Below are positions 7,916-42,409 of a stretch of DNA of 42,486 nucleotides, one piece after another. Both the position numbers and the translations under genes were made by a program. The notes beneath the pieces were generated by a model that was given only the letters and a program-made list of their open reading frames with translations, was not told the DNA's origin and searched no databases. Each line of letters opens with the position of its first letter. Position 1 is the stretch's first letter. This stretch comes from Gracilaria domingensis (Eukaryota > Rhodophyta > Florideophyceae > Gracilariales > Gracilariaceae): the NCBI GenBank assembly GCA_022539475.1, contig VCMS01000392.1, positions 1 through 42,486 on the forward strand, in the 5' to 3' direction.

Positions 7916-10900
7916 TTAAGGCTGTACAAGATCAACGTGCTCAGTTGGTCTTTCATCTGAATCATGATAGAATCGATTGATGTAGAATCGGTGTTGAAAC
8001 CATTGAAGTGGAGGACAAAAAGGTGGGGCAGGGTAGTTTGATCGAACAACATGGACAGTTCCCTGTAGTGCAGAAGCCGGAACCATCCCGTACCAAGGAG
8101 TTAACTCTACGATAGTCTCCGCTTTGGAATGACGAGGGAACGGAAGAGTGTGGTTCTTTTCATCGTTTGTAGCCCACCGTAAAGATATGCATTTCAATAT
8201 GTGGTCGATGCTTGTTGCGGGGGGTAAAACCTCGAAATACCGGACGAATGCCACCTCTGGTGCGGTAAGTGCAGAATCAAGGAGAGATATTCGAATCAGA
8301 GCGACTACCTGGGCAACCCAAGTCTCTGAATCTTCTCCGCTTACCAATACAGTTGAAAACTTTGACTTTCTACTTGGACCAGATGCTGGAGAAGCGAAGA
8401 CTCGTTGGATGATGGGATATTTGGGTCGTCCCAGCTTAAGTGCCTTAGAAGACGAATCGAAGTGTTCAAGAGTCGGAACGAAACCGCCTTTCACGAGGGC
8501 CGAATTCACCAGAGTTATTCTTGTCTTTTCTGGGAAGTATGTAATAGAGTGCTCATCCAGTGTTTCTTTCACGAGACTGAGGAAAGGAGGAAGGGCCTGT
8601 TCACCAATTTGGTCAAGAATCGGCCTTGTGTCCGTACTTGAGAACATCTCTCTAACAGCAGTCCATGTTTTTGAACTGGACATACTTGAAACACAATGTT
8701 GAAGAGCTCGTAAAGTGAAAGAACGCTCTCCCATTGCAAATCGAGGGAGCTGTGTGGAAGTTCCTGGTAAACCTGGACTACGTTTGTAAGGAGTATTGCC
8801 ATTCCATTGCTTTTTAACATGTCCGTGCTCAATGGAGCGAATAGTCTCGTCCACAGCCGTTGCTGTTCTTCTGGACGTCTTTTTGTAGTGTCTCTTAAAT
8901 AGCAAGTGTGCATGTTCGTATATGCCTGCGTCGTAGTACTTGATACTTCCCAGACGGCGAATATCGTCCACGAGATGATCGAGAAGATGATACTTCAGAG
9001 TTTTCAGTCTGGAGGGATGAAAATCCGCCAGAGTCTTTGTTGCGAAACGCTTGAAGGCTTCAAGCTCCGAACTAAGACACAGGAGAGAGCTTTCAGTCCA
9101 ATACGGGTCACGATTGAATCTGAATAAGGTCGAGAGCAAGTCCGAGTACTGAGAGAAAACGGTTGTGATTGGGGCAACGTCCTGTTCTTCACAGCATATG
9201 TCAAAGAATGCTCCTATGAAGGGAAAGACCATGTCAAGTGCTTTGTAGTTTTTGGCCTCCAGCATTCCACGGAGACCGTCTTTCGTGAAGATACCATTCA
9301 AAGATTTGCCTTTCTCCTGCGTGGAGAAATCGATATGTAAACCTTTGGCAGGAGAATCGCGTTCTATGGCAGCTAGAATTGCGTTTGCATGGTTGAGGAG
9401 TTGGGTGCGTATCGTTCGAAATGAACGCGATGCAGATGTTCCTATTGTGGTGCACAGGGTGTCTGACTGCAGTCTCTCGATTGTGGCCGTTTTTATCAAC
9501 TTTGAGATGCCGAGATGCAAGTTGTGTAATGGTTCGAATGAGAACAGACTGTATGGAGACAATCCCGGGATCATTCCAAGGCTTACGGAAGTTTCGAGGA
9601 ACGAAGGAATGAGAGATATGGAATTTGAACGCATCAGAGTATCCCATCTCCTCTCCCTCGCAGGACGTGGACGTCTTTCCGCCTCGTCTTTTTGTGCATG
9701 TTGCAAGATAGCTGTGTATGTCTTTCGGATGCTTTTCGTGTGCTTTTAAGAATGTCCGTTGAATGAGGTGGGAATAGGACTGCATGAAGATGAGCGAGGG
9801 GCTTTGCATCTATGACACGGGCTTTCGGTTTTGGTCCCATGAAGAATGGACAGAATGTCCTTAGCCTCAGGAATATCCGCTAACTTGCAAGCAGAGGATG
9901 GCACACTCGATTTAGTTTGTGTTCGCCGATGAACTAAAAACCTTTCTGCGTGAGATTTAGAATGGGCTCCAGGACTTGACGAAGAGATTCTTGAAGGATT
10001 TGCATCCTGGAATCGCGTAGAGACTTGCTAGAAACGAATGGCATTGCGTCCGCTTCAGATGCGGATACCTCGATCAGTGTGGTAGGGAAGTATGTCACTA
10101 CTGTGAGGTCATCACGGATGCACTTACGGCGTAGCTCGTTGGAGAAGTTGAGAAATATGAGGTGAAGAGGATAGGCGGTAACCGATGTTTGCTTTAGAGT
10201 TGTTGAAGACTTATCGGTGTATACCTGCAGAAGACCTACGAAAGATTCACTGTAACTTATTTCTTGGGAGTACCACACTATTCTACTATCCAAAGAGCCC
10301 ATGACCATTTCCTTAAGTTTTGAGGTGGCGTCTCTTGCGAGAGAGCCGGACATGGGGTGAGATATTTTCGTGGAGTGGTTCTGAGGTATAGGGTGGAAGA
10401 ATTTGTTTTCGTTGTTAGCCAACTGGAGCTGTTTCACAAGTGTCTGAACGGGGTCTCTCGTGTAGAGGGTGGCGCTGAACTTACATCCTTCTGGCGAGAC
10501 AGTTCTGCGATTGAAACCGTCCTTTGAGGCGTATCGTTCGAAAATGGCGTTCTTCAGTTCTGTACAGCGCTTGGAACTTGTTAGGGTCTCGTTGAATCGC
10601 TTTTGCGAGAATCGAGGGTCCCGAAGTAGCCCAAATAGCTCGTCTGCCTCACGATGACCAAGGGTGGAAGCAACTGAAGCCAGACAAACCGTGAGATAAT
10701 CCATATGCAAATCACCGAGGGCCTCCTCAGAAGGCACTGGGCGGGAACTGCTTCTGTGTTCTCGCTCTAATGACGCGGGACCCGGGGAAGGAGAAACACA
10801 ATGCGAAGTGTCCGGAATGAGAGGGGCACACGGAGTGGGGTCAACGATGTCCTCGGACACCGGAGGCTCGGGAAGGCGACAAGGGGCAGTGACCGTTTCG

Positions 10901-11181
10901 GAAGATGCGGGCGCGGGCGCGGAAAGCTTGAGACGCTTGCTTCTCCGAATGGGCTGCCTATTGTCGTCTTCCAGCGCTGCTTTCAGACGAAACGGGCAAT
11001 GGTTGACATGCTGTTGAAGAGATAAGACTCCTCGGCGAGTAACGAAGGGGCACCCACGCTTCTTATGTGTACAGTAGTAGACCGTGGGAAGAAGAAATGA
11101 ACGAGAAACGACGACAAGGACTGCAAGGGAAGGTCGTCCGAAGGGAGAAGGAGGTCGAGCGACAGTCAATATCGACGTCAT
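7916..11181 (-). pseudogene. Plavaka/CMC-type DDE transposase, interrupted
   Basis: Two large frames, 11181-9934 (415 aa) and 9706-7916 (596 aa), form one protein. The amino part has a C-x6-C-x13-H-x3-C finger (C37 to C62), a basic RRSKRLK motif, a disordered linker, and then LYTRDPVQTLVKQL followed by LLQVYTDKSSTTLK. Asp323 in YTDK is the likely first catalytic residue, as in Plavaka transposases. The carboxy part has FEPLHNLHLGISK, corresponding to the LHQLxxG segment, and HLVDDIRRLGSIKYYDAGIYE then H-LLFKRHYKKTSR, matching the DIRRFGS-x-YxxE-x-H block of that family. Between the halves lies CHRC. Lesions: a one-base loss in a T5 run at 9936-9940 and an in-frame TAA at 9746-9748. Family assignment rests on remembered motifs, not a search. 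Confidence 0.75.
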
Positions 11182-11760
11182 GCTCAGAACGGAGAATACA
11201 TTTTGAATTTAAATCACGTGCTTTCGTTCAAAAAGGAACGTAGGTACACGTCGACCTCAACACAAGGGTGTACTTCTCGTATTATCTACCACTGGTTATA
11301 AACCTGTGGTTTCGCAACGTTGTACGCTGTACACCTGTCTAATCTCGCACAGAAAAATAAATCTCTTCCCTCCGCCGCCGCTGCCGCGCCTCCGGCGTCC
11401 GACCTACCGTTACCGTCGTGACCCGTGCCATCTACCTCCTCGCGTTCTACTCCGACCGAGTAGAACGCGAGCATATGGATGGCACGGATCACGAATGGCG
11501 CTTCGTCGTACCTTTCTCCGACCTCGCACCTGCTACGAAGTACAGGGCGGGGAAGAGAATGAGGTACGCTTCATGTCCGCCTAATGGACGCCTCCATAAA
11601 GCGGACATCATCCGTATCTCACGGATGTATTCCGTGCAGTCTTTTCGTACGTGCTTCCATATCTTTCTACGTATCTTTGTTCTACACTAACCAATCCTCA
11701 CCACGTCTCTTCGCGCTCTGCGACATGTAAACGGCAGGAAATAAGCTGTGGGTTACTTTT
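11182..11760. other. Region upstream of the transposase, with one strong hairpin
   Basis: No gene is recognised. The stretch probably holds the transposase promoter and the right subterminal part of the DNA transposon. It contains the palindrome described separately at 11422-11488. Confidence 0.4.
11422..11488. repeat. Interrupted palindrome
   Basis: The inner arms CGCGTTCTACTC (11441-11452) and GAGTAGAACGCG (11458-11469) are perfect complements around a 5-nt loop. The outer arms CCGTGCCATC and GATGGCACGG are also perfect, separated from the inner stem by short mismatched segments. Confidence 0.75.
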
Positions 11761-12641
11761 GCGAGTTACTAGGTCCCTCGAATTTTCTAGCGCGACGTTT
11801 CCGTTTTGCTTTATCAATGGTACGTTCCATCGTATATCAAATGTATCCAACGGAGCATTGACTAACTTATGGGTATTTTCTGCTTACGTATACACGTAAA
11901 TGACTTTTGATGCGGACGTTGCTCACGAGTTGCAGGTGCAGGATGTTAGGGGGAACTGCGGTATGTTTGCTGCATGGGCATTCTTGGTGTCGTTGCTTGT
12001 GAGTTCTCGCTTCGAGACCATTCGCGTTTTACAATGATGGTGGGCTGGTAATCTAACCGATCCCTTTCCTTCTTCTTCTTCCTTTTGCGAGTTACTAGGT
12101 TCCTCGAATTTTCTAGCGCAACGTTTCTGTTTTGCTTTATCGTTTGTACGTTTCATCGCATTTCAAATGTATCCAACGGAGCATTGACTAACTTATGGAT
12201 ACTTTCTGCTTGCGTATACAGGTAAATGACCAATTTCATTTCGTCTCTCAAGATCGATGTCTGACTGTTCGGGATAGGCGATTCTGGTGCTTGGTTTGGA
12301 CATAGGCTGCTCTTTCGGTTTTCGTAGCTTGCGGTATGTTTGCTGCATGGGCATTCTTGGTGTCCTTGCTTGTGAGTTCTCGCTTCGACACCTTTCGCGC
12401 TTTACGATGATGGTGGGCTGGTAATCTAACCGATCCCTTTCCTGCTTCTTCTTCTTTTTGCGAGTTACTAGGTCCCTCGAATTTTCTAGCGCAACGTTTC
12501 TGTTTTGTTTTATCAATGGTACGTTCCATCGCATTTCAAATGTATCCAACGGAGCATTGACTAACTTATGGATACTTTCTGCTTGCGTATACAGGTAAAT
12601 GACTTTTGATGCGGACGTAGGTCACGAGTTGCAGGTGCAGG
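11761..12641. repeat. Tandem repeat, two full units and one partial
   Basis: Units begin with GCGAGTTACTAGGTCCCTCG at 11761, 12087 and 12460, giving spacings of 326 and 373 bp. Each carries GGAGCATTGACTAACTTATG and GTATACAGGTAAATGAC-like blocks, a CACGAGTTGCAGGTGCAGG segment (missing from the middle unit) and a TTCTTCTTC pyrimidine stretch. The units are close to one another, with substitutions and small indels. The array sits on the upstream side of the transposase, where subterminal repeats would be expected. Confidence 0.8.
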
Positions 12642-23172: not shown

Positions 23173-24121
23173 CATGGATACCATGGATGATGATTACCCC
23201 TTGGGTACTTTGCGTCTTACGCATTTGAAGTGATCTACGTCTTAGAGATACCGTTGGCACGGTGCGACTGTCTGATATGCACCACAGGTGCGCCGCCGTA
23301 CTGTTCGGCTGTGCTATAGTAACGCGCGCTGCGCCTATGCACGGTTTTGACGTGGACTCTCTGCATCGAGATTTTACATTGCGTTCACGAACGAACGGCC
23401 AATACCGGCGCTGTGCAGTGTGCAGCACTCTGAAAAATCTCAATTTTTTGAGTTGCCAACCACTCACGGTGTCCTCGCGTGGCACGCGCATCGCCTGCAA
23501 CGGCGCGCGCAATTTTATTGCCAATTTTTTGGCTTGCCAAGGCGCTTGGACTCCGGCGCAAACGGATGGCGTGGCACATGGACACTTGGCACCTTCGCCT
23601 GCCCAATCGGGAACGCTTGCACAAGCACACGTGGCGGAGTGCACGGCCAATGATATTGCGTTGCACTCCGTGTGCACGGACAACTGCCGTGACAATCCAA
23701 CCACCCACGTGGCGTTTTGCCGCACCAATGGCATTCAAGTGCACAATCCCCGTGGCCGGGTAAACCGCCTCCATGCGTAATGGTTGTCCCTGAAGTGGGT
23801 AAGCTCCGAGAACGGTCAACCTCGTGAAGCCGAGTGTCCTGCTTTATCGTCTTTATCATCGTTCGTCGGTTTGGAAATCGTTGTTCACCAACAAAAGATC
23901 GTTGAACTCAGGAGCTTGAGGACTGTCTGTTGCAATTCGTTATACGAAGTTTGGGAATACCAAAGTGGAGCTACTGTACCGCCGTCAGGACCAATGTTCG
24001 CGAAGCTCGCGTGTCCGAAAAAGCGCTAAGCCGTCGCGGAAGCCTCCACTGCGGAGTTGTTCTACGCTCTAGGAGTGAGTCGCTCAACTTTTTGAGGTGT
24101 TCTCAGTTACTGAGTTGAGAC
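23173..24121. other. Unexplained 950-bp segment between integrase and chromodomain
   Basis: In El3 the chromodomain follows integrase in the same frame, but in El2 this segment lies between them. It is open in several frames on both strands (for example 23262-23780, 172 aa, with scattered Cys), which is typical of a segment poor in stop codons, not of a gene. No terminal repeats are visible. It could be a secondary insertion or element-specific noncoding RNA sequence. Confidence 0.4.
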
Positions 24122-24355
24122 ATGGTTAATCCGGAAGTGGATGTTCATTCGCAAGAGTATGGCGTGGATCGAATCGTGCGGCATGTCGCAGGTACCTATG
24201 GGAGGTTTCGTTACCAAATCCGCTGGTACGGATACCCTCCAGGTGAGGACACAGACGAGCCGATAGAGCATTTACCTCGCTATAAGGTGATAGCCTATCA
24301 CCGGCGTTCTCGTACGACTCCTCCCTCATACCTGGACTGTGCCCAGGTGGGATAA
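24122..24355 (+). CDS. Chromodomain ORF of El2
   Basis: A 77-aa ORF with ATG at 24122. YGVDRIVRHVAGTYGRFRYQ then IRWYGYPPGEDTDEPIEHL is a chromodomain, with the aromatic cage positions near Y14 and the WYGY strand, followed by a helix (RYKVIAYHRR). Chromodomains at the end of Ty3/Gypsy integrases bind methylated histone tails or chromatin proteins and steer integration. Normally it is part of the integrase protein, as in El3. Here it is separated by about 950 bp and has its own ATG. It may be expressed separately, be joined by splicing, or be a stranded domain. Confidence 0.75.
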   Translation: MVNPEVDVHSQEYGVDRIVRHVAGTYGRFRYQIRWYGYPPGEDTDEPIEHLPRYKVIAYHRRSRTTPPSYLDCAQVG

Positions 24356-24713: not shown

Positions 24714-26561
24714 TTACATCCGCGTCGATGGGCCGGCACCTCCCAGATTGGTGGGACCACCCTGGTTCAGGGAAAGCGAAGGGTAGCTCTGCGCAGCTAA
24801 CGCCAGCATCTGGCCGATATCCGTCATCCCCGGTGGAATCGGGACGCCCATCTGGGTGAGCTGGTTTCGCAACGCAGCAGCCTGCGGACCAACCACCCCA
24901 GTCGGCCTGATGTTCCAACCAGGTGGAGCGCTACCCGCGCTTGCTCCCGTCGTTGGGATAACCTGCAAGTTACTCACCGGCGTCGGTCACACCCCCTCTC
25001 CAGGATTCACTGGTTCGCTATCCACCATCGGATCGTCCCCGCTGTCTCGGGGATAGTATCGGTCGGAGAACATGAACCCGACAGGGTGATCACTCGGTAA
25101 GACACGAGGCACTTGCTTCAAGGCGCGTGCTTCCCCGAAGACGGTCACGGTTCCCTCCCAAGTGTTGAAATATACGAAGTCTCCAGCCCCTGGATATTGT
25201 CTACCTGGCGACTTATCGAAGCGCGTACGCTGACCCGGTGGAACGTTCTCGGGCATTACCTTGCTCCAATCGATATCATCGATGACGTCGAGCAGATACA
25301 GCAATTCATCCACGTTGGTTGAGGAACCGAGAGCGGTATGTAAATCCACTTGTCGGATGAGCTGCCTCAACTTCGGGGGAAGGTACCAAATACGGCACTG
25401 GTCGTAAACTTCCCAGAGGGTGAACGCGGCAACGCGGGCAGCCCATTCGCACATCATCAGGGCCCAGTAACCGGACTTCGGATTCGCAATCATGCGGGAG
25501 CCAACGTAGGCAATACAGGGAGGACACTCTGCGAAACAACTGCGTGGAACCTCAAGGTTGCTCCACCACGGAGGAATTGGGACGTAACGACCCGGTAGTG
25601 CGTCATTTCGCAGAGGTTCGAATTTGGAATTCGTGTAAGGTACGAAGAACCCAAACCGGGATCGCCACTTCCTTTCACTTCGGACGCGGTCGCGGAAGGT
25701 CCCCTCGCCAGAAGGGCGTCGCATGAAGCGGAACTCTGCTCGCAGAATCGGTCGGTTGAAGAGTAACATATCCGGATCCATCGGAGCATTCGGGTCAATC
25801 TTCGTCGGATCGAAGGCAGCGGGATTCGCTCCATAGGTGATTTCACCGTACGTTCGGTAACGGGAGAGATCGAACCCGTACTCGGGCGGTACCATTTCTG
25901 GTGGGTTGTGAGCACGGTTCATTCGGAAGTGCGAAAGGCGCGCCATACCTGCGCGAGCTTCGTCAAGCGTCTCGTACCGTCTGCAGGTTCTTTTCCTGTC
26001 GAGGAGGTGTGGTGCCACCGCGATGCGGGTTCTCCAATCCCAGGAGGTCACCATATCTCGTGGCAGTGTGTCGTCTTCCGTGTAGGAATCGATGAGGTCT
26101 TCATCCTTCACCGCTTGAGGGTGGAACCAGGGAGCTCTGGAATACGCCCAATTGCCGTCTAGTCACGGGTCTCGCACGAGGAGCGATTCGCGTGGGATCC
26201 ATCCCGACGCGTGCGCTGTAACCGGCATAGCTCCAGCGGAGTTCCAAGCCGATACCGCGGCGACGTTCATAGCTGACGTAGCCGGCTGCTGACTCTCGTG
26301 TGGCAGCGGGGCCGTGGCGAACCGGCCGAAGTATTCTGCTCCTGCAGAGGAAGGTCCGGCACCGGAGGGAACACCAGACTGGCTGGGACTCTCTGAGGAG
26401 GTTAAAGCGCTGTCGTTGGAATTCGGATTCATCGAAGGAGCGACCTCTCGCTTTGCTTGGTCGTTCGGAATGTCGAAGTTCGCAGGAGGCGTGTGTTCAC
26501 TTGAGAATGTATCGCTGTTGAGCGTTGGTTTTCTTGGTATCGGAATGTCCGAGTCACTCAT
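24714..26561 (-). pseudogene. El2 antisense accessory gene (two in-frame TGA codons)
   Basis: One frame runs from ATG 26561 (MSDSDIPIPRKP) to the stop at 24714, about 615 codons, broken only by TGA at 26163-26165 and TGA at 24987-24989. Both fit CGA to TGA changes. The head is disordered (Ser/Pro/Asn). A folded core contains GFFVPYTNSKFEPLRND, then WWSNLEV and PPCIAYVGSR, and YWALMMCEWAARVAAFTLWE (residues about 303-375). A Pro/Gly-rich tail ends it. No known domain is recognised. The gene lies between the chromodomain and the 3' LTR, opposite to gag-pol; its ATG is 77 bp from the LTR, so the LTR must act as its promoter if it is expressed from there. El3 has a gene in the same place and orientation with a weakly similar core. 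Confidence 0.75.
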
Positions 26562-26624: not shown

Positions 26625-26635
26625 AAGGAGGGGGA
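26625..26635 (+). promoter_or_regulatory. El2 polypurine tract
   Basis: AAGGAGGGGGA lies 2 nt before the 3' LTR, the primer position for plus-strand DNA synthesis. El3 has the identical 11-mer in the same place. Confidence 0.85.
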
Positions 26636-26637
26636 TG

Positions 26638-27606
26638 TGTAGAGCAATCGCGATTTTGCGTTTGTGACGTGTTCCGTCTCATAACACCTCGGCTTTCCGA
26701 GTTGCCTCTACAGCAAGGTTATGAATGTAGGTGGCATTCTGACGCCATATGGCATGGTGGCACCCGATGGGGTTTATGAATTGGTAACTGGTTGTGGCAG
26801 TGGATCGCGTGTACGCGTTCATGGATTGGCTCTGTTACAGAGAAAATTGGATTGGTTATTAGAATTAGTGGCTGCCAAGGCGGGTGTGCACAAGTGCAAC
26901 ACGGGTGTGGCTCTGCCGTATTTTGGCAGTACTTAGTTTAATTATTTAGTTTAATTTGTGGAAACCTACTTAGGTGATGGCGACCTCGCCGTCACCACCA
27001 CCAAGTAAACTCAAACTTGTCCGCGGCTCTGACTTGAGCGCCTGCGCGTAGTGCACTACTCCGCGAGGAGGGTCACCGCGTACGGCTTCGCTTATTTCAT
27101 CCCCAAGGGATCACTCAGGTACCCTGATCTAACACTACGTTTGTTTTCGGACTGTGCTCGCACATTTATTTGCAGGTGTCTGCTACTCTGGTGTTCAGAT
27201 ATTGTATCGACTCTGTATAGAGGTCTGCCGCGTGGGCTCAATACGCATGGTAACCCTCGTCCCGGGTCTGTTGCCGCTTTTCGCACGACCCCGCCCTCAG
27301 GTGTGTCCCTTTTTCTTTTCTTTCCTTTCCCCCTTTTCCCTATCTTTTCCCTCTATTTCGAGGCACCCCGTCGACCTGGGTTCCTCCCCTTCCGCCTCCG
27401 ATTAGAGATCTCCGACTCTCGGACGTTTGCTTACAGATCTCTTCTTGACGATTCCCGCCGTCACCTTTGTGGTATTTCCAAAGTACGGGCGGATTTACAC
27501 CTGCGCTATCCGTATACGGAGGGCTCTTCTGCTGAGTCTACCTCCCAAGGGAGCAAGGATTCGAGCACCTTGAGTGTCATTTCTCCCAAGTGGGATTTGC
27601 ACTATA
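26638..27606 (+). repeat. El2 3' LTR
   Basis: Gap-free match to 15351-16319. The last dinucleotide is TA instead of CA. About 8 of the 12 differences I count are transitions. Confidence 0.93.
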
Positions 27607-31340: not shown

Positions 31341-31894
31341 TGATATAGTACGTATCGGGAGAAAAACCCGAAGTGGTCTTGAGGCGACGGAGTTGGCTGT
31401 GGCTCGAGGGAGCGACTGTAATGAACCCGTACGGGGAGTAAGGAGGAAGCACCGGGCGGTCAGCGGGGAGAGTGGGCGGTTGGTATCACCAAGCACGTTC
31501 AGGGGCGTGCAAAAAGGGTACGAACGGCCTAATAAATCTTATAGTACTTAGCTTAACGGCCTGTCGGTAGCGCTACTCGACGAACAAGACGTACGGCAAA
31601 GGGTGCTTGGTGTTTACAACGTGAGGTCATGGCGAGGTTGGGGTTCGCCTAAATATCAGGTAAACCCGCCTCTGTACGACCTCCAGATAGTGACTTACAG
31701 TACTATACTACGCCCGTCAACGTCCGACTGGCACACGTGTCCTACGTACGCTCCCAAGTACGCCTGGGTCCGACGTCCGATGCGGGGACAACCACTCGTA
31801 CAAGTAACCACTCGGGCCAGCCCTACACGTACGACACGGCACTCCTCACAACCCACTCCGTCCGCGGCGATCAACCAGATCGTACTATACGACA
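31341..31894 (-). repeat. El3 3' LTR
   Basis: In - orientation it begins TGTCGTATAGTACG and ends CGTACTATATCA, so its ends form an inverted repeat. A TATAAG motif (minus strand, 31538-31543) is a candidate core promoter. On the + strand AATAAA at 31531-31536 is a possible polyadenylation signal. Confidence 0.9.
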
Positions 31895-31896
31895 GA

Positions 31897-31907
31897 TCCC
31901 CCTCCTT
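31897..31907 (-). promoter_or_regulatory. El3 polypurine tract
   Basis: On the - strand AAGGAGGGGGA lies 2 nt before the 3' LTR, identical to the El2 tract. Confidence 0.85.
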
Positions 31908-32820
31908 AGATTGCACTCCATCCCCGGAGTGCAGCCAAGCGCTGCGTCCAAGTCCGTTTGGTTGAGAAGAAGCCACCGTTCGCTTCTGCCACAGAAAGTG
32001 CCCGCCAGGGGCGGGGCGAAGCCATGTCAAAACTCTGGCGCGTGGCGTGAGGCGGAGGGTCGTACGACTGGTAGACGTCGGCTGCGTGGTGGTACGACGC
32101 GCGGGAAGCCGTTCCCGTTCACAAAGCTGCCCACGCGGATTAGGAAGAAGAACACGTATCGAGGCCGTGCGTGTATCGACGTTTTATGGCCTCGACGCCG
32201 TCCGTCCTGGTAGCGCACCGAGTCTCACGTCAGGGCCGACACCTCCACGTCTCATGCGCCCCACAGCAGTTCGTGGCATGCGCCCGCGGGGTCCCGGCTT
32301 TCATGCAGACGATACGCACGTTAGGGTCGACGACAGTGACCGATCGCGTACGTTCCACTGGTCGCGGCGGCGCGACCAATCCTCCTTCGTACACCGTGGC
32401 GGGTTTCCTCCAACAACGGAGAGTTTATGCGCCCGGGGCGTCCGTTCCCGACGGGTCGTGCCCCAAGGGCGGCCATGGCGTCACCCTGTCGTACCTCCAA
32501 TGGCGCTGACTGCGGTAGTGAGGCCGTCAGCGGGCTCGCGCTCCTGCCACTGATGCGGTCGCACGCGCGCGGTGATCGCCGCCGTGCGACATGCGCCCGA
32601 TGCGAAATGAGCACCAGCGACTTCGGTGTCGAGGGGGTGCACATTGGCCATGCCCGTTCGGAAATAAATTGAGGTGTGAGAGGCCTCAAAGTGTACGTAT
32701 CGGCGCGGGCGATATCGCTTTCCGCGAAACCCGGAACGGTCGTCCGTCTTAGCCCGTGCACCTCCGTGTCGTACCTCGCGGCTACAAGAGCTCCCTTCCG
32801 CGCGTCACCCGTTGCCCTCG
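31908..32820. other. Leader region between LTR and antisense gene in El3
   Basis: GC-rich, about 900 bp. Several frames are open on both strands (for example 32047-32553 on +), probably because of composition. It would be the 5' leader or promoter of the antisense gene; a spliced upstream exon cannot be excluded. Confidence 0.4.
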
Positions 32821-35163
32821 ATGGGTTCGCAATCAAGCCAGTCGTCCGCCCCGCCGCCTGCGATGGCGAGCAATCCGAATCAGCCGAGTACGTCTGGTGG
32901 TGGCGGCCCGTTTCGGTCTATGCCGCTTCCTGGCCAACACTTCGACCATCGTAGCCGTCGTACGAACCAGGCTCCGCGTCGGTCGAAGCAGGTTCCTATA
33001 ACGGTCAACGAGTACATTCAGGACAGTGCGGAGTACTTCGATGCACGTCGCTTCGCAGCCATTCCGGTCTCGCTCCCATTTCGTGAGGTGGCGAACCGCA
33101 ATCCGAAGCGTACGCGAATGGAAGCTTGGCAGGCACGCTGGAATCACCTCCCTGGAATCGTCGGTCGTGCGGACGAAAGGACGTTCGGAATAGCCGACAT
33201 GCCGTACTTAAGGTGCCCCGAGGAGCGCGAGTATCAACGCCGACTCCAGAGCCTGATGCACCGGCTCAACTCCGACGCAAACTTTACGCCCGAAAACGGT
33301 AATCCTCTAGCGTTGGTGATGTTCGAACCGCCGTACGACCAGCTGTACTCGTTAGACCGCGAGCATTGGGGAAGCAACGCCGCGACGGAAGCCCGCATTC
33401 GGGGATCACACCGTTTCTTCTACTCCTGGCACAACGTCGAGTACTTCGACGTTGCGAAGAACGACCGTACGGCAGTGTACTACAGTATGACCGAGGCGTG
33501 GAAGTCTGTGGAGGTCGAACGCAACCTTTCCGTACCGACGCCGTCCGTGGTGGCGTACCATTCGCGGGAACTGCTGTCCCAAGGAGCCTTGAGCCGTGCG
33601 GTCTTGCAGGTCCTGTACGCCGAGTGGGCAGTTTTCGCTTTCATGGCGTTTCTCCAGGCGGCCAGCGACGGTGTGGAAGTCTTCACCCGTGCGGGCGATC
33701 AGCGTCTGTACAACACGGACGATTCGCCGCAGTACGGACGGTTGTTCCCTCTCCCGTACATATTGGTATGCATCTTGGCCGAAATGGGGGTGCAGAACAT
33801 CCTGCGGGGGACCTCTTATCCTCCTGCGGTCGGTGAGAAGCTCCTTCAGTACTCTTTGGAGACGGACTGGTCGCAGACGCCGGGATTCCTCTGGTACGAC
33901 TACTTTGAGGACTCGTTCCGTACGATGCCCGCATCCGGTACGGGCGCGATGCCGATCAACCGAGTGCTATTGCCAACGGGGCAGCTCCCGCCTTGGCCAT
34001 TCACGGATAGGCCGAACTACTTCCCGCATGGGTATATGGAGGAAGACTTCGAAGCCGCTCTTCCGGTGCCGAGGCGTGAGAGCGGGGTCCAAGCCGGTCT
34101 GCCTCAGTTATCCTCCGCGGCCGAGCCGGAGCCTGATCCGGAGGTCGTGGAGGTACCTGTGCGTACGGAACGAGAGGTCCAGGTCGGGCTCCCAGGCCGC
34201 CAATTGGACGCAATGGGTGTCGAAGTCTCTGGCGAGCGCCTCCAGACGTTGCTCCATGACTTGCGGGCTGTATGCGTTCCGCGTGGGATTCCAGAGCCGA
34301 CTGACGTGCCGAGCGCCCTGACGGATGCGCGTACTTGGGTGCGTCGCGCGGCGAACTCCGAAGCGTGCCTGCGCGAGCAGGCTCAGGGCATGTTGGACCT
34401 ACTCGGTTATCTTCGCGAACACAGCCTGCGCGTTCTCGGTTCGTACGAGCAGGGTATGCTGGCCGGTTTCGGGGAGGGTACTGCACCGGACGGACAGGTT
34501 ATGGAAACGCAGGCTCCCACGTTGGACGAGTTGGTCGGTGAGTCCTATCAAGGGTTGCACGACCAGGCCATGGTGGAGAATCAGGTCAACCAGATCGTTC
34601 AGAACTTGAGACGGGCGCGTGCGTCCATGTTTGACGGGGTTACTCTGAACCCTCCAGCACCTCCGGTGAGTCCGGGGGGAGCTGGGGAAGGCGATGGTGA
34701 GGCCGTCACCGGTATGGAGGGTGTCGCTGTAACGGGCGACGGTGGCGCTCAAGCGTCCGGTAGCGGTGCTGTAGAAGTTGGTGACGACGTGGAGCCGGAG
34801 GGTACCCCAATGACGGAAGTCCCGCCGGGTGTGGAAGCTCCTAGCGTGCCTGCTTCGGTGGAGCAAGGTACCGGTGCGGGTGAGTCAGGTGTGGCTGCTA
34901 GTGAGGTTCCGGCGGCGAGCACGCCTAGTCAGCCGCAGTCATCCAGGAGGGTCGTGGTACCCAATGCTCTCTGGCCGGGTACTTCCAGTCCGTTCCAGCC
35001 GGTCAGTTCCCGAGGTGGCTCTGCGTCCGTCTACCGTTCGGGCATTCCGACACCTCGTGGGAGGGGCCGTGGTCGCGGTGGTACGCGTGGCCGTGGTCGT
35101 GGCGTATCCAAGACGTTTCCAGCGGTGAAGAGCATCCAGAAGAAGGGACCGGGTGGTGCTTAG
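32821..35163 (+). CDS. El3 antisense accessory protein, intact, 780 aa, RGG box
   Basis: An uninterrupted frame from ATG 32821 (MGSQSSQSSAPPP) to TAG 35161-35163, opposite in strand to gag-pol and between integrase and 3' LTR. The head is disordered and basic. A folded region includes HRFFYSWHNVEYFDVAKND, AWKSVEVER, SVVAY and YAEWAVFAFMAFLQ (residues about 197-277). A helical part follows (LQTLLHDLRAVC to about residue 610), then a Pro/Gly/Glu-rich linker. The end has RGRGRGRGGTRGRGRG (about 746-761), an RGG box of the type that binds RNA or nucleic acid. The core spacing F-F, N, F, N-D, Y, W-x-S-x-E-V, A-Y is shared with the El2 antisense protein. No known family is recognised. It stays open while gag and pol of the same young element are broken. 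Confidence 0.8.
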   Translation: MGSQSSQSSAPPPAMASNPNQPSTSGGGGPFRSMPLPGQHFDHRSRRTNQAPRRSKQVPITVNEYIQDSAEYFDARRFAAIPVSLPFREVANRNPKRTRMEAWQARWNHLPGIVGRADERTFGIADMPYLRCPEEREYQRRLQSLMHRLNSDANFTPENGNPLALVMFEPPYDQLYSLDREHWGSNAATEARIRGSHRFFYSWHNVEYFDVAKNDRTAVYYSMTEAWKSVEVERNLSVPTPSVVAYHSRELLSQGALSRAVLQVLYAEWAVFAFMAFLQAASDGVEVFTRAGDQRLYNTDDSPQYGRLFPLPYILVCILAEMGVQNILRGTSYPPAVGEKLLQYSLETDWSQTPGFLWYDYFEDSFRTMPASGTGAMPINRVLLPTGQLPPWPFTDRPNYFPHGYMEEDFEAALPVPRRESGVQAGLPQLSSAAEPEPDPEVVEVPVRTEREVQVGLPGRQLDAMGVEVSGERLQTLLHDLRAVCVPRGIPEPTDVPSALTDARTWVRRAANSEACLREQAQGMLDLLGYLREHSLRVLGSYEQGMLAGFGEGTAPDGQVMETQAPTLDELVGESYQGLHDQAMVENQVNQIVQNLRRARASMFDGVTLNPPAPPVSPGGAGEGDGEAVTGMEGVAVTGDGGAQASGSGAVEVGDDVEPEGTPMTEVPPGVEAPSVPASVEQGTGAGESGVAASEVPAASTPSQPQSSRRVVVPNALWPGTSSPFQPVSSRGGSASVYRSGIPTPRGRGRGRGGTRGRGRGVSKTFPAVKSIQKKGPGGA

Positions 35164-35295
35164 ATGGTTCCGATGACGTGCATTTCCTTGAGTAAACTTG
35201 TGTTGTTGTTCGCGTTCTTCCTTTGCGTACGTCAGGTTGAATCCATTGGCGTAAGGTGCCGCTATCGGAAAAGGCGGCGTTTCACTAGATCGAAA

Positions 35296-35301
35296 AATAA
35301 A
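35296..35301 (+). terminator. Possible polyadenylation signal of the antisense gene
   Basis: AATAAA 133 nt after the stop codon on the sense strand of the accessory gene. The 225-bp gap between its stop and the end of pol (35389) leaves room for convergent 3' ends. Confidence 0.4.
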
Positions 35302-35388
35302 GGGGGTGAGCCAATGAGCGTACGGTTATGGCGAATATCTGGTCGACCGTCGCGCGTCAGTGGCCGTATCCGTGCCGGTTGGAGCCTG

Positions 35389-38300
35389 TCACGTGCTTGG
35401 GGAGTCGGTGGCGTTTTGTCCAGCCGACGGACTTCCGTCTGCTTCTCTCCCCCTCCTTAAGGGTGTTGCCGATGTCGGACGACTTTGGCGACGCCAGTAT
35501 CGGGCGACAAAGTGCTGAGGGATGTTGGAAGGGGGTTCGTAGGTGTCCGATTCGGCGGTGTAGCCGTACCAGCGTACGCGGTATTGGACTCCGTCTGGCC
35601 TGTCGCGGTGCGCTACGACGCGTTCCACGACACAGGGAACCGTATCGGGTGGCGGTAAATCGTCTCGTTCGACGACGTCGTCCGCTAATGGTCCCTCCGG
35701 GTCAGCGACGGGTTCCTCCCGTGTACGTTCGGTGGTAATGGGGCTTCTCGTAGGCCGTGCGGACGGAGCGCGTGTGACGCGATCAATGGAGACGGTGTGT
35801 TCGATACCGTCTTCATCGATAGTAACGGTAGTGTCCGTTGTGGCCTTGACCTTGAACGGACCGGTGGTCTTCGGCAGTAGTTTCCGAAGAGTTCGTTCCT
35901 GTTCCGTTAGGTCCTCTTCCGTGCTTTTGTAATTGGGTCGGTCAATGTACACTTCCTCGCCTTCCGCGAACGTAGGGCGAAACCGGACGGTCTTATCGAA
36001 GTCGTACTTGTAGCGCTGCTGTGCGCGTGTCAGCTTTGTCCGAGCGGTCTGAAGCGTCGCCTGTAGGAGCTTGAGCGTGTATCGCTTCAACTGGGCTGCG
36101 GACGGCTGAGTCGGTGTTGCGGGGTCCAAGGACGTACTGGGTTCGTCGATGAGGACACTGGGAGGTGTTCTCGTTAGTGCGACTGCGAACGGGGTGGCTC
36201 CGATGGACCTATGGATGGACCTGGAGGTTATATCCGTACGTAAAGGGTTGGACATATGCGTGCCACGTCCTTTGGTGGTCCGCTACGTAGTGACGAAGGC
36301 GTTCCACCAGTGTCTTGTTGAACCGTTCGGCCTGCCCGTTTGCCTGGGGGTGATACGCAGTGGTCGAGACGTGCTTCGTGCCCAGTGCGGAGCAGACGGT
36401 CTCGAAGAACTTCGACATGAACTGCGGTCCGTTATCGGTTAGTAGGCAGTTCGGGATGCCGTACGGGTAAACCCAATGTTCCAAGAACGTTTTGGCTACC
36501 ACTGGAGCGATGGTTGACCGCAGCGGTATGGCTCGCGAGAGCTTGCTGAACCGATCGGTCATTACCAGGATGTACTGGCCTCCGTTAAGGGATCTAGTAA
36601 AGGGTCCCACTATGTCCATGGCGATAAACTCGAGCTGGCCAGCTGCTGGGAAGAGCTTCAGGAGCTTCTGGGACCGGTAACGGGTTCCTTTGACGGCTGG
36701 GCATGACCGACAATCCCGAACGGTCTGGAAGACGTCGTTGGCCATGTGGGGCCAATAGAAGTCCCTCCGTAGCGTTTCGTACATTCTGGTGGCACCAGGG
36801 TGTCCGACCAAGCGGGGATAGTGCGCCAGATAAAGGACGCGCGCCTGCAGGGACTCAGGGACCACCTTCTGTAGAGCGCCGTCCCAGCGTGAGCGTCGTA
36901 TGAGTACCCCGTTTCGGTCGACGTCGAACAGGCTAACCCCGTTGCCGACATCTCTCCGTACAGATTGGCAGAAAGGGTCCTGCGCCTGAGCTCGTACGAG
37001 TTCCTCGAGCGTGATCGGTACGATTTCGGTTTCCTCCGCCGGCAGTGCCAGCACTTCCGGTATCCCTGGTGATTCCCGTTCGGGTCTTGGCCAATCTACG
37101 CAGACGTTCGTGTATTCTTGTCCGTCTACGGTGATGTTGGCTATAACGAGACCATCGTCCGGACGGTCGTCGATGAGGAAACAATGGACTTCGTCATCTA
37201 GCGGCGAACTGTCCTCTCCGTCCGTTTGGATTCGTGAGAGTGCATCTGCCGCTCGGTGTTTGATACCCGGTCGGTGAATGACGTCGAAGTCATACTCCAT
37301 CAGGCGTAGGCACCATCTTGCAAGTCGCCCTGAAGCGTCCGCTAGGTTCAGTATCCACCTTAACGAGTGGTGATCCGTGCGGACAGTGAACTTCTGTCCT
37401 TCCAAGTACGGTCGGAGGTGCAGGATAGCCCACACTACGGCGAGGCATTCCCGTTCGGTCGTTGAATACTTCCGCTCGGTCTTGGTTAGCGAGCGGCTCC
37501 AGTATCCGATTGGGAGAAGGTCCCCATCGGGTTGCTTCTGGAAGAGGGCGCAGCCAACCTGACGGTCACACGCGTCGGTGTCCAGTACATATGGGTATCC
37601 TTGTTTCGGGATAGCCAGTATCGGGGGCCGTACCAGACGTTGGCGAAGTTCGTCGAATGCCTCGTATTCCGTATCGGTTAGGGTTTCGAAGCTGGTAGGC
37701 TGTCCCTTTTCCAGTTTCTGATTCAGGGGAGCCGCTATCCGTGCGAAGTTCTGTACGAACCGGCGGAAGACGTTGCAGAGACCCAGGAACGAACGGAGTT
37801 CCGTTTGCGTAGTGGGCGGCTTCGACTGCTTGATGGCCTCCTGCGTCTTCGTAGACACCTGGAGCTTGCCCGGACGGATGACATGGCCAAGGTAGTCGAC
37901 CGTTCCACTAAAGAAATGGCATTTGTCCAGGCGTAGGGTAATCCCTGCGAAACGTAGCATGTCGAGAATTGTCTGTACGTGTTCGTAGTGTTCTTCTATC
38001 GTTCTGGAGTAGATGATCACGTCATCCAGGTAGACCAGTGCGTACTGCCACTGAACACGTGATAGGATGATGTCCAGAGCCCTCTGGAACGTTGCCGGGG
38101 CGTTCTTGAGTCCAAAAGACATCCGTACGTAGCGGTAGAGGCCCATGTGGGACGTGAAGGCTGTCTTGTCCCGGTCGGCTTCGTCCACTTCGGTCTGCCA
38201 GTATCCGCTATTGGCGTCCAGTGTGGAGAATATCCGTGCGTCTCCTAACGAATCTATACACTCGTCCATTCGTGGCAGAGGGTATGTATCCCGTACGGTC

Positions 38301-39579
38301 ACGGCATTCAAACGGCGGTAGTCGACGCAAAAACGTAGGCTTCCATCTTTCTTTTGTGCAAAGACGACCGGACTGGCCCATTCTGCGGACGATGGTTCGA
38401 TCACCCCTGCTGCCAGCTGTTGGGTTATCTCCTTACGTTCAAGCTCCCGTCGGGCGGGTCCTGCACGGTAAGGCATCTGGAATATCGGCTTGGTGCCGGG
38501 TTCCAGCTGTATCCGATGCTTTGCGGCCGAGATTTTGCCTAAATAGCCATCCCACATGTCCTTGAACGGTCGGAGGAGTTCGATGACTGTGTCGCGTTCG
38601 TTCTCATACTCGGGGCTGATTTGAACGCGTTGGGGCCAATCGGGCTCGTCAGAACGCCGTGGAGGTTGGTCTAAAGCGGTATCCTCCCCCTCCTGAGAGT
38701 CGTCGCTGCGCGGCGTATCTGGGTGAAGGGGGTGATTAGTGCTGTAGGGGACGGGAGGGCGAGACCAATAACGGTACGTTTGTGGAGGTGCACCGGTCGG
38801 TCTGAGACGTTAGCAACTTGAACGAAGAAGGGAACGTCCGGACGTAGATCCATGACGCCGTTCGCGAGCAGTGTTAGCTCTAACGAACTGCCCGTGCGAT
38901 GGTGTGATTGTAGAAATACCAGACCGGACGCCTTGGTTGTTACTTGTACCCTGGTTTCGGACATGGGGGGTAGCGTAAAAGGTCGGGCGACGTGTATCTT
39001 GTTAGAAGACACATTCCGCTCCGGTTGGACTGGGTATTTCCGTACGGACGTGGGCGTGTGGGGACCGTACGCGTGGGACAATATCGAGACAGGCCGTGAA
39101 TGGCGCAGGAGGATCGTCCGTTTTGCGGGTAAGATTCCCAGTACGTATCAATCGATAAAAGACGTGCCGAGTATGACGCTTGTGGCGAGGTTCGATACCA
39201 CAAGGAATTGTACTCGTACGTGAAGGTCTCCAATGCGGACAGCGAGCGGGAGAACACCCAAGACCTCCATACGGTTGCGTGAAGCGTCCGTAATGCGTGG
39301 TTTTACGTCCGTGCGCAGACGAGATTGCCATCGCGGTGGAAGATGCCGCTCGTGGATCAGGCAAGGACCGGCTCCGGTATCTAGAACACCCGTGAGCGGA
39401 TACATTATGGTAGATGTGAGGCCCACGGAAAGGTGAACTTTGTAATTTGCACTCGCAAATAAAACAGTGTCGTCCATACGTTCTGGGGTGTCGAGAGTCA
39501 GTTCCGTTCCGCCCGCACTGGTTGGTTTGGGCCTATCGCCCGGTGTGGTGGGGCTATCCGCCCTCGGAGGAGACGACGC
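35389..39579 (-). pseudogene. pol: El3 pol: protease, RT, RNase H, integrase-chromodomain
   Basis: Protease: TGVLDTGAGPCLIHERHLPP. RT: VIEPSSAEWASPVVFAQKKD, RFCVDYRRLNAV, STLDANSGYWQ and catalytic LVYLDDVIIYS. RNase H: YVLDTDACDRQVGCALFQ, FTVRTDHHSLRWIL and AADALSRI. Integrase: LAHYPRLVGHPG with CRSC zinc site, then FIAMDIVGPF, LLTDNGPQF and GQAERFNKT. Chromodomain: CVVERVVAHRDRPDGVQYRV followed by RWYGYTAESDTYEPPSNI, fused to the integrase carboxy region. Lesions: TGA at 39148-39150 where El2 has Arg (CDRF), a frameshift between about 38680 and 38740, and a 4-bp tandem duplication (CCAT on the - strand, near 36210-36217) just after NLQVH in integrase. RT and RNase H are otherwise complete. 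Pol is in the -1 frame relative to gag. Confidence 0.92.
35448..35458 (-). promoter_or_regulatory. Internal copy of the polypurine tract (El3)
   Basis: AAGGAGGGGGA on the - strand, identical to the terminal tract at 31897-31907 and lying in the tail after the chromodomain, about 3.5 kb upstream of the 3' LTR. A near copy (one end base different) is at about 38683-38692. Confidence 0.5.
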
Positions 39580-39581
39580 CC

Positions 39582-41780
39582 CTACGCATCCTCCGGCTCG
39601 TTTTCTTGTTCCGAAACGGTCTCTTCCACCAGCATGGCTGCCTGCCGAGGCTGGGCGTAAGATGTGCGATTCAGGCCAATATTACGGAAACCGACATTGG
39701 GTGGCGGTGGCGTGTTTCCCCGTGTGGGCGTACCGGTGCCGTAGTACCCTTCGTCGCGCCGGCGTTGGTAGTTTTGCTCGCGGATTGCGAGGAGTTTAGC
39801 CTTAACGTCCGGTGGGAGAAGTTGACAATCTGTTGGGCTCTTGCGAGAGGCAAATCCTGCACGGACGGTCCCTTGACGCTGCGCCAGGGGGGTTGCTCGA
39901 CCTTTGGCGGGGCGTACTGGGGAATGACGGTGCGGAAGTGGCTGGGGTGGTTGCGCTTGGTGTGGTGGGTGGTGACGGCATGGAAGACCCCTGGGATACG
40001 ATGAGGACATCTTCGCCGTTGTCGTCCGACAGGGAATACGTCGAGGCCGAGGGAGACTCGATCTGGTGCACCTTTCTTATCGTACGAGTGGCACGAGGCC
40101 GAGCAGACGTAGTGTGCGTGTCCACTCGAACGGACTGGCGGCGTGAGGCGCAGTGAGTATCGCCGTACGATTCGGCATAACGGGCGAGCGCGTCGTATCC
40201 GATGCTGGGATGGGTGGTGAGGTGATTCCGCACCTTTGACCGTATGGCGGGCAAAAGTCCTTCGACAAATAACCCCTTCAAGTCCCGATCGGTGTATACG
40301 TTGCCACAGCGGAGGGCTTTTGTCCAGAGCTTCTGGGCAAATTCCGTTTCGGACATCCCTGACGACTGGGTGTAAAATGTCACCTCTGCGGACGCCGTGG
40401 CGATAACCTCGTCCGTGGCGTAGGTGGTCAGTAAGAAATTCACCACCTCTTCGTACGTATAAAGCGCTTCATCGCGAGGCCTGTCGACCGCTCCCGACTC
40501 ACCGATGAGACGGGACTGAACCAGAGCGTGTGCGGGCCCGGTTAGGTAGAACTGGAAGCACCACAGTGCCGCTCCTTCTGTCAGTCCGTTATGGTTGCAA
40601 GCGGTCTTGAACCGCTGCAGGAAATTGAGAACGGAGATGGGATCCGTTCCGGAAAATGAATGTCCTTTCATCTGGACGTTCAATTTCTTTTGATAGCGCG
40701 CGATCTTGCGCGCCACCTTCGAGTCGTACTTCTGGCTGCGCCGAATGAGCCGGTACGTACGGTAGTTCACAACCTTGGTGAACTTGACGTTCAGAGGTCG
40801 GAGGCGCTTAAGCGCCAACATGTCCGATCGGGAACGTCGCCGTTCGGACTTGCGTTTTCTTCGGGGGCTTTGAGAGTCCCCGAATCATCCGAGTCGGTAT
40901 GCTCATCCTCTGATGATGAACGTGAGGACGCGGAGTCAGTATCTGAATGTCGTCGCCCTCTGCGGCGGCGACGATTCTTCCGTCTACGTACGGAATTGTC
41001 CGAATCGGGATGCTTGCCCGGTTTACCGCCTCGTTTGCGGTGATTCCTCCCGTCGTCGGAGAAATCGCTCGAGCTTCCGTCCGGATCACCCTGAGGGGGT
41101 ACTGGTGGGAGATAGACACCGGTCGGATTCCTCTGCGGATCCTTCTCCATTTCCGGTCTCTGTTTCTCACCGCGACTAGGTGCGTTGTCCGTTTGGTCAG
41201 TGTCAAACTTTGGGGGTTGGGGTGGCAGCTTAGCTACCAAAGCGGCCAACGTGTTACTCAGATTCTCTTGCATTCCGCTTTCGGTACGTCTGGATCCCAG
41301 CGCATCGTTCACGATGCGGTGTATGATCGGTGTGATATCACGACGCATCAATTCCGGGATACGGTCCTTGAGATATAATTCGACCGCCATGGGTACATGA
41401 ACCTCGATCTCCGTACGGAGTCCCTCCAGGGCGTACGGGGCTATTTCGGCCCATATTTCGTGGGGTGGTCTCCGTCCGGTCTGAGGTGTAGGCGGGAGTG
41501 CCGCCGTCCCAGGTGGTACAATCTCAGTTCCCAAAGGGGGCTCGGAGTTCTTACTCCTCTCTTTCTTCCTTCGGTCCGACTTGGTTTGCAAATTGCCTTC
41601 ACGGATTATCCGTTCGGGCTCTTCTGAGGGGGTCACGTAGGCCGTCGCGGTAGTTCGGGTGCTCCGGCAGCCTACCGAGGCATGGTCCGAAGGGGCGCGA
41701 GGGGCGGCCAAAGTGGACTCAGCGTTGTCTTCTGCGACCTGCCGTTCTCCTTGCTCTCCGTGTGGGACGTTCGAGCTCAT
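39582..41780 (-). pseudogene. gag: El3 gag polyprotein
   Basis: The ATG at 41780 (MSSNVPHGEQGERQ) is preferred over 41837, which overlaps the primer site. The head is Pro/Ser-rich and is followed by a helical part (EIWAEIAPYALEGLRTEIEV) and an acidic-basic Ser linker. A frameshift at the C4 run 40878-40881 switches frame just before LALKRLRPLNVKFTKVVNYR, the counterpart of El2 LGLEELKPTNPLHRKLLSYQ. The capsid-like domain (SFSGTDPISVLNFLQRF, FVEGLLPAIRSKVRNHL) follows. Around 39850 another frame change splits the zinc knuckle (PCRICLSQ in one frame, SPTDCQLLPPDVKAKL in the next). The stop is at 39582-39584. Confidence 0.85.
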
Positions 41781-41835
41781 CTTGGAGTATCGTTCCAATT
41801 CGGTACTGTAAACTCCGTGCGGTCTCGAATTCCAC

Positions 41836-41853
41836 ATCTAAGTCGGGAGACCA
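41836..41853 (-). promoter_or_regulatory. El3 tRNA primer-binding site
   Basis: On the - strand TGGTCTCCCGACTTAGAT starts 3 nt after the 5' LTR. It shares TGGTCTCCYGACYTAGA with El1 and El2. Confidence 0.8.
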
Positions 41854-41856
41854 GTC

Positions 41857-42409
41857 TGATATAGTACGTATCGGGAGAAAAACCCGAAGTGGTCTTGAGG
41901 CGACGGAGTTGGCTGTGGCTCGAGGGAGCGACTGTAATGAATCCGTACGGGAGTAAGGAGGAAGCACCGGGCGGTCAGCGGGGAGAGTGGGCGGTTGGTA
42001 TCACCAAGCACGTTCAGGGGCGTGCAAGAAGGGTACGAACGGCCTAATAAATCTTATAGTACTTAGCTTAACGGCCTGTCGGTAGCGCTACTCGACGAAC
42101 AAGACGTACGGCAAAGGGTGCTTGGTGTTTACAACGTGAGGTCATGGCGAGGTTGGGGTTCGCCTAAATATCAGGTAAACCCGCCTCTGTACGACCTCCA
42201 GATAGTGACTTACAGTACTATACTACGCCCGTCAACGTCCGACTGGCACACGTGTCCTACGTACGCTCCCAAGTACGCCTGGGTCCGACGTCTGATGCGG
42301 GGACAACCACTCGTACAAGTAACCACTCGGGCCAGCCCTACACGTACGACACGGCACTCCTCACAACCCACTCCGTCCGCGGCGATCAACCAGATCGTAC
42401 TATACGACA
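41857..42409 (-). repeat. El3 5' LTR
   Basis: Matches 31341-31894 except for three substitutions and a one-base indel in a G run (near 41949). The candidate TATAAG promoter motif is at 42053-42058 on the - strand. Confidence 0.92.

Follow-up and report, generated by a model that had tools for sequence, protein, structure and literature searches.

The window analysed here, a 42,486-nt stretch covering contig VCMS01000392.1 of the red alga Gracilaria domingensis, contains two complete-looking Gypsy chromoviruses, designated El2 and El3, and each of them has a long reading frame that runs antisense to its own coding genes. These frames raise the question of whether they are genes at all, whether they belong to one family and what such a protein might do for an element. 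An earlier note on this DNA, made from the letters alone, had placed both frames in the same slot and had proposed that they share a spaced pattern of residues.

El3 (31341-42409, minus strand) is bounded by a pair of 554-bp LTRs (31341-31894 and 41857-42409, 99.3% identical) and flanked by the 5-bp target-site duplication CAATC. Pfam identified its reverse transcriptase, RNase H and integrase (36209-38557, minus strand), as well as a chromodomain (PF00385, E 6.6e-11) in the frame that also encodes the C-terminal part of integrase (35389-36255, minus strand). Convergent with this frame is the antisense gene (32812-35163, plus strand), which is intact, with 783 stop-free codons and a first ATG at 32821; beneath it, the minus strand has no ORF that reaches 200 aa. 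Between the gene and the 3' LTR (31341-31894, minus strand) are a leader (31908-32811, plus strand) and a polypurine tract, AAGGAGGGGGATC (31895-31907, minus strand), which was read from the sequence and adjoins the LTR.

El2 (15351 to about 27606, plus strand) is bounded by LTRs some 969 bp long and 98.9% identical, the first running from 15351 to about 16319 and the second starting at 26638 and ending near 27606. It is flanked by the target-site duplication AAGAC, and contains reverse transcriptase and integrase by Pfam and a chromodomain at 24119-24355 (plus strand; PF00385, E 2e-06). Gypsy-type reverse transcriptase and integrase, with a chromodomain following the integrase, place both elements among the chromoviruses. 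The El2 antisense gene (24714-26561, minus strand, first ATG at 26561) is followed toward the 3' LTR (26638-27606, plus strand) by a polypurine tract (26625-26637, plus strand), and the tracts of the two elements at the LTR edge are nearly identical (AAGGAGGGGGAT). The coordinates first given for the two genes were right, and so was their slot, antisense to the other genes with the chromodomain on one side and the 3' LTR on the other. Their sizes, given as about 615 and 780 codons, agree with the about 616 and 783 codons found here, but the El2 frame is not intact, being broken by two in-frame stops (26163-26165 and 24987-24989); intact relatives of this gene are present elsewhere in the genome.

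The relationship between the two proteins was examined by profile-profile comparison. An El3-type profile (A1, five sequences) and an El2-type profile (A4, ten sequences) matched over 290 columns with a probability of 97.9 and an E value of 5.5e-13. This match scored 111.3; shuffling the columns of A4 100 times never gave more than 28.8, and the reversed profile gave 22.9. A smaller El2-type set (A2) still gave a probability of 91.4 and E 8.9e-07. Direct BLASTP of the El3 protein against one El2-type protein was weak (E 0.009), so that profiles and bridging sequences were needed to join the two types. One bridge, L047, matched the El3 protein at 34% (E 6e-73) and that of El2 at 29% (E 5e-11) in tblastn. 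Another, L054 (481-3303, minus strand), is a very diverged member of 941 codons with RG-containing stretches in its N-terminal part, and matched both profiles (E 5e-59 and 4e-12). In El3, the region homologous to El2 covers about residues 87-420 of the protein (P0001, numbered from 32791). The spaced pattern described in the earlier note proved real and lies inside the profile-aligned region, where both types show, in turn, a stretch with N-x-E, then W, E-V, P-P or T-P, Y and, in a long helix, E-W. As judged by these alignments, the El2 and El3 antisense proteins are almost certainly homologous. A strict EW pattern was also tried as a mark of the family; it fitted 11 of 13 El2-type and none of the El3-type sequences and was rejected as too strict, the alignment being the evidence.

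A frame may also remain open as a by-product of composition, or lie over a non-coding antisense RNA of the kind known for LTR elements (PMC7264820), with any protein idle. The distribution of differences among copies speaks against this reading and makes it hardly credible. Between El3 of the window and copy L003, differences at the three codon positions of the antisense frame numbered 13/13/49, the third position dominating; the counts were 27/30/82 for L006 and 14/11/28 for L004. The third-position pattern was absent in the leader in the same three comparisons (15/11/18, 91/84/97 and 9/14/10). On the sense side, positions 35392-36650 cover integrase and chromodomain in two frames; there, the third positions of the chromodomain frame were in excess for L003 (21/45) and L006 (28/53), and there was no such excess for L004 (11/28).

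The dN/dS values across copies, a calculation suggested when the frames were first noticed, point to purifying selection and agree with the codon-position counts. For the whole El3 gene, dN/dS was 0.186-0.478 (26 non-identical pairs from eight copies). In five chosen pairs it was 0.187, 0.368, 0.110, 0.091 and 0.113 for the core and 0.203-0.396 for the tail, and between El3 subfamilies the core value was about 0.1. The El2-type set comprised 12 sequences, with dN below 0.35 in 23 of 66 pairs. Among these 23 pairs, dN/dS between families was 0.100-0.189 in ten (one further pair was undefined), with synonymous sites near saturation (dS 1.4-1.9), and these low values also argue against an idle protein. 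Within families, it was 0.49-0.92 (twelve pairs), and the decayed El2 family had a median of 0.495 (range 0.347-0.964, 105 pairs). Low values between families and high values within them are expected if the protein is selected while the elements are mobile and copies decay after insertion; the range of 0.49-0.92, as expected for dead copies, adds no support. Counter to a random density of stops, many copies have also retained an open frame: among 20 El3-query matches that covered at least 750 of 780 residues, 13 were stop-free, as were 45 of the 67 scored matches of the El2-type family represented by L045, although some of the identical open copies may be one locus assembled twice. We consider it virtually certain that the antisense frame is a real, conserved coding gene.

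We then asked how widely this gene occurs, as the earlier note had proposed, by searching the host genome (77.9 Mb, 680 contigs) for further Gypsy copies. The antisense gene was recurrent in the slot, defined as 1.5-7 kb downstream on the opposite strand: a family member was found there at no fewer than 33 of 58 El3-like and at least 57 of 114 El2-like integrase loci (the El3-like loci were counted as pol matches), and these counts are lower bounds, as the best candidates only were scored. Three other loci had an antisense match nearby in a different arrangement and 79 had none. Places repeated between searches were entered once, and the comparison left out the 18 lowest El3-query rows, the last El2-query row and short N-terminal pieces found with a Gracilariopsis chorda query.

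Thirteen of the 79 apparent misses were sampled, 12 by a fixed step down both lists and C48 in place of a locus near a contig end. Nine of these 13 had the gene in the slot (L051-L054, L056-L059 and L061). Among the others, L060 has a shortened antisense copy opposite what reads as the chromodomain of another element, L050 runs into the contig end, and L049 showed no antisense match in the locus or in the next 4.2 kb. L055 was considered as a possible gene-free family and rejected; its similarity to sister copies ends past the chromodomain, and two of those sisters, L064 and L065, carry the gene. No family clearly without the antisense gene was found in the sample, with 66 misses remaining, and in this genome the antisense family recurs in two lineages of Gypsy chromoviruses.

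The distribution also bears on the possibility that the gene is a captured host gene which rides along with the elements and retains a host-type function. Capture by LTR elements is known (PMC7264820), and one intact antisense copy, L039, showed no integrase or chromodomain match in the 5 kb examined. Against this, 11 of 14 inspected antisense loci have an integrase or chromodomain on the opposite strand, and L018 and L041, which belong to the other three, have a pol or integrase match further off. There is also no convincing Pfam match, and database matches comprised one hypothetical protein of the red alga G. chorda (BWQ96_10156, P0014) and unnamed metagenome proteins; capture therefore appears improbable. 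When BWQ96_10156 was used as a query, at least 77 scored places in the genome matched at 69-72%. Some matches to this query fell into two pieces about 70 nt apart, and an intron in a host gene was considered and rejected, as the frame of L046 (610 aa) is open through the gap. About 30 residues for which L046 is open are missing from the deposited BWQ96_10156 protein, perhaps through a wrongly predicted intron, so that its gene model may have lost part of an exon. In the same locus (L046:2570-4999, minus strand), integrase to chromodomain is a single 810-codon frame with a very long low-complexity linker. A separate observation involved contig C144, in which three El2-like integrase matches (62303, 73889 and 85483) lie on one strand with a spacing of about 11.59 kb, suggesting a tandem array of elements.

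When six families and one additional El3 copy were compared, integrase and antisense protein sorted them alike, into an El3 group and an El2 group. Across the two groups, identity was 0.36-0.58 for integrase and 0.16-0.25 for the antisense protein. Within them, it was mostly higher (0.74-0.98 and 0.52-0.77 for integrase, 0.36-0.96 and 0.43-0.50 for the antisense protein), and the two sets of identities had a rank correlation of 0.67, computed over non-independent pairs. The simplest reading of this parallel grouping would be that the antisense gene was present in the common ancestor of both groups and has evolved faster than integrase.

The position of the gene relative to the polypurine tract offers a clue to its transcription. 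The tract pattern was not found in 15 of 31 items; where a tract was present in El2-type items, the first antisense ATG was 66-77 nt away in nine of 12 (73 nt in El2 itself), the exceptions being L030 (203 nt), L058 (330 nt) and L059, which was too decayed to assign. As the tract lies directly against the LTR, the 5' end of any El2-type mRNA translated from the first ATG has to be inside the 3' LTR or next to it, and the 3' LTR of El2 likely contains or adjoins the start. El2-type proteins also have a later conserved-looking ATG, and the first ATG may not be the one used, in which case this argument is weakened. In El3-type items (four, all of the El3 family), the distance from first ATG to tract is 866-1008 nt. 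The El3 leader of the window differs from that of L006 by 19-49% per 200-nt bin (32000-32799), as compared with 2.5-13% in the ORF bins, so that no conserved promoter is visible there, and the 3' LTR of El3 is proposed as the putative origin of the antisense transcript. Such divergence of the leader between El3 subfamilies may reflect recombinational replacement or very fast evolution. Known antisense promoters lie inside the 3' LTR in HTLV and upstream of gene23 in maize Grande (PMC7264820). HBZ is the antisense gene of HTLV-1; in El2 and El3, a 3' LTR promoter of this kind is suggested by geometry. On this geometry, antisense transcription is likely to be LTR-driven.

Domain and fold searches gave few clues to function. 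At E 0.1 or below, Pfam showed no match for the El3 protein, the 374-residue stop-free part of the El2 protein, five other host copies or L054; at E 1 or below, ten A4 members yielded Cyclophil_like2 alone, in two of them (best E 0.23). Transposase_28 (PF04195) was absent from Pfam scans of El2, El3 and other family proteins. HBZ has a bZIP domain; no such Pfam match was found in the family proteins scanned, nor any other in the El2 and El3 proteins, and the host and element of HBZ are unrelated to those described here. The predicted core structures of the two proteins had mean pLDDT values of 53.7 and 54.7 and pTM values of 0.58 and 0.57. These low-confidence models established no structural match between the two proteins, Foldseek found no usable match for either in PDB, and the El2 core model had none in the VIA second look or among viral models. 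Sequence searches of PDB gave no match for A4 and two chance-level matches in the low-complexity tail for A1. Five family proteins had no match in PHROGs, neither profile had a confirmed relative in viral contigs, and a further protein search with A1 found nothing beyond P0002.

The core, of about 330 residues, is mostly helical in the low-confidence models, and the protein ends are rich in Pro, Gly and Ser by eye. The El3 protein has an RG-rich C-terminal tail; RG-rich ends were present in three of 12 members scanned (P0001, P0002 and P0003) and absent in nine. Basic clusters of the nuclear-signal kind occurred in only six of 20 sequences, and an N-terminal FRxxPLP motif in three of 20 (P0001, P0014 and P0021), which is suggestive only. 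The maximum 19-residue hydropathy ranged from 1.26 to 1.79 across 12 proteins. An envelope-like or cell-to-cell movement protein, anchored by a hydrophobic helix around the conserved EW motif, might be considered from the best windows (1.66-1.79), which cover this motif in the El3-type proteins P0001, P0019 and P0020. But the other nine proteins peak at 1.26-1.58, three of them at a site away from the motif, and the helix contains the conserved Glu-Trp and, in El2-type members, an Arg. Known env-like ORFs are in sense orientation (PMC7264820), whereas the El2 and El3 genes are antisense. We regard an anchored protein of this type as very improbable.

Antisense ORFs in this slot are already known. 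The aORF-3R class, located antisense between pol and the 3' LTR, is described for Grande, RIRE2, Retand and PvRetro13 of land plants and for Boty of Botrytis and Sclerotinia (PMC7264820, PMC11963269). The slot, the antisense orientation and the conservation across most copies are common to these ORFs and to the El2/El3 family, whose genes are likewise long ORFs between pol and the 3' LTR, opposite gag-pol, with conservation at the protein level. However, Retand is described as a non-chromovirus, with Transposase_28 (PF04195) encoded in this slot by 97% of its clusters (PMC11963269), whereas El2 and El3 have a chromodomain and an antisense protein without a Pfam match. For Boty, the likeness is one of slot and orientation, by description. 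The analogy with plant Tat/Ogre elements and HTLV-1 drawn in the earlier note is one of position only, as neither Transposase_28 nor another convincing Pfam domain was found in the protein. Another example involves Tekay chromoviruses, for which an extra 5' aORF without amino-acid similarity to grass Tekay 5' aORFs has been described (PMC11728184); by description, it is a conserved extra chromovirus protein, partly disordered, as those of the El2/El3 family appear to be, but it differs in its 5' position. In the available text of the open-licence literature, including PMC11963269, PMC7264820, PMC11728184, PMC12477816, PMC5970526, PMC12502185 and PMC10398659, we found no antisense gene in red-algal Gypsy elements and no description of this protein family, consistent with the original suggestion that it may be undescribed. 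What we rate as new is the protein family, borne by a lineage of chromoviruses in a different group of eukaryotes.

Our best overall explanation, to which we give about even chances, is a conserved, LTR-driven antisense gene encoding a trans-acting regulator of the element. The antisense mRNA would start in or next to the 3' LTR and run backwards, and the protein would return to the element's own DNA or RNA and regulate it in trans, either as a factor for transcription or RNA or through relief of silencing by the host. Binding or interaction with a partner might fall to the conserved core, which is mostly helical, and contact with nucleic acid to the tails, which look disordered and are RG-rich in a few members of the El3 type. 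A regulator is favoured by the position of the gene, by plant precedents (PMC11963269) and by VANC proteins (PMC10398659). Among the precedents are antisense ORFs whose product is nuclear or is predicted to bind DNA (PMC11963269, PMC7264820), and regulation was proposed for a plant aORF on the basis of predicted DNA binding (PMC11963269). VANC proteins are anti-silencing proteins of Arabidopsis VANDAL transposons (PMC10398659, PMC5735166); as accessory transposon proteins they are a proposed functional analogue of the antisense protein, although VANDAL is a DNA transposon. No Pfam, PDB or fold match pointed to nucleic-acid binding, and the small share of sequences with basic clusters or RG-rich ends also speaks against a regulator. 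A nuclear regulatory or anti-silencing role, suggested by analogy, is a plausible proposal with slightly less than even chances.

The main rival is a particle-associated function, in which the protein would be a structural or replication accessory factor translated from the antisense mRNA and not a regulator of transcription or silencing; it might, for example, partner Gag or integrase in the particle, as an RNA chaperone or during nuclear import. The splitting of the antisense protein into the same clades as integrase would fit such a role, as would the RG-rich ends of some members and the recovery of the gene in most of the sampled loci that the searches had missed; import of the pre-integration complex has also been raised as one possible role (PMC7264820). 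Reverse transcriptase and integrase are already present on the sense strand, and a sense frame resembles a Gag capsid by eye (without Pfam support), both of which argue against a further structural gene. Genomic RNA is the usual source of structural proteins, whereas an antisense mRNA is under a control of its own, and this general consideration also weighs against an accessory factor, which we regard as doubtful. Returning to the trans-acting regulator, a stronger form appears equally tentative: an ancient LTR-driven antisense gene would be a fixed third gene of red-algal chromoviruses that predates the El2/El3 split, with a new fold and a trans-acting anti-silencing or transcription factor of the family's own, and each element would in effect be read in both directions to give two transcripts, much as in a deltaretrovirus.

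Antisense accessory genes of LTR elements have been described mainly in flowering plants, Boty and deltaretroviruses, and the function of those in plants is not known (PMC7264820, PMC11963269). A separate family in another lineage and in chromoviruses would point to a repeated origin of antisense genes in this slot, or to a greater age than has been assumed. The many near-identical open copies in one genome offer a practical system for studying antisense gene function, and a protein without a recognised domain or fold would add a new family to annotation libraries.

Additional features were observed elsewhere in the window. A Plavaka transposase (PF18759, E 3.3e-7) is encoded at 9934-11181 (minus strand), and beside it, at 7916-9706 (minus strand), is a 596-aa frame with no Pfam match; a very similar Plavaka-type frame, compared by eye, is present on contig C165 (L049:2452-3744). 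Two plus-strand frames of 321 and 309 codons (5543-6508 and 6936-7865) had no Pfam match. Beside the Plavaka gene, three direct repeats of 274 nt are located at 11631-12603, the outer two being 64% and 95% identical to the middle one.
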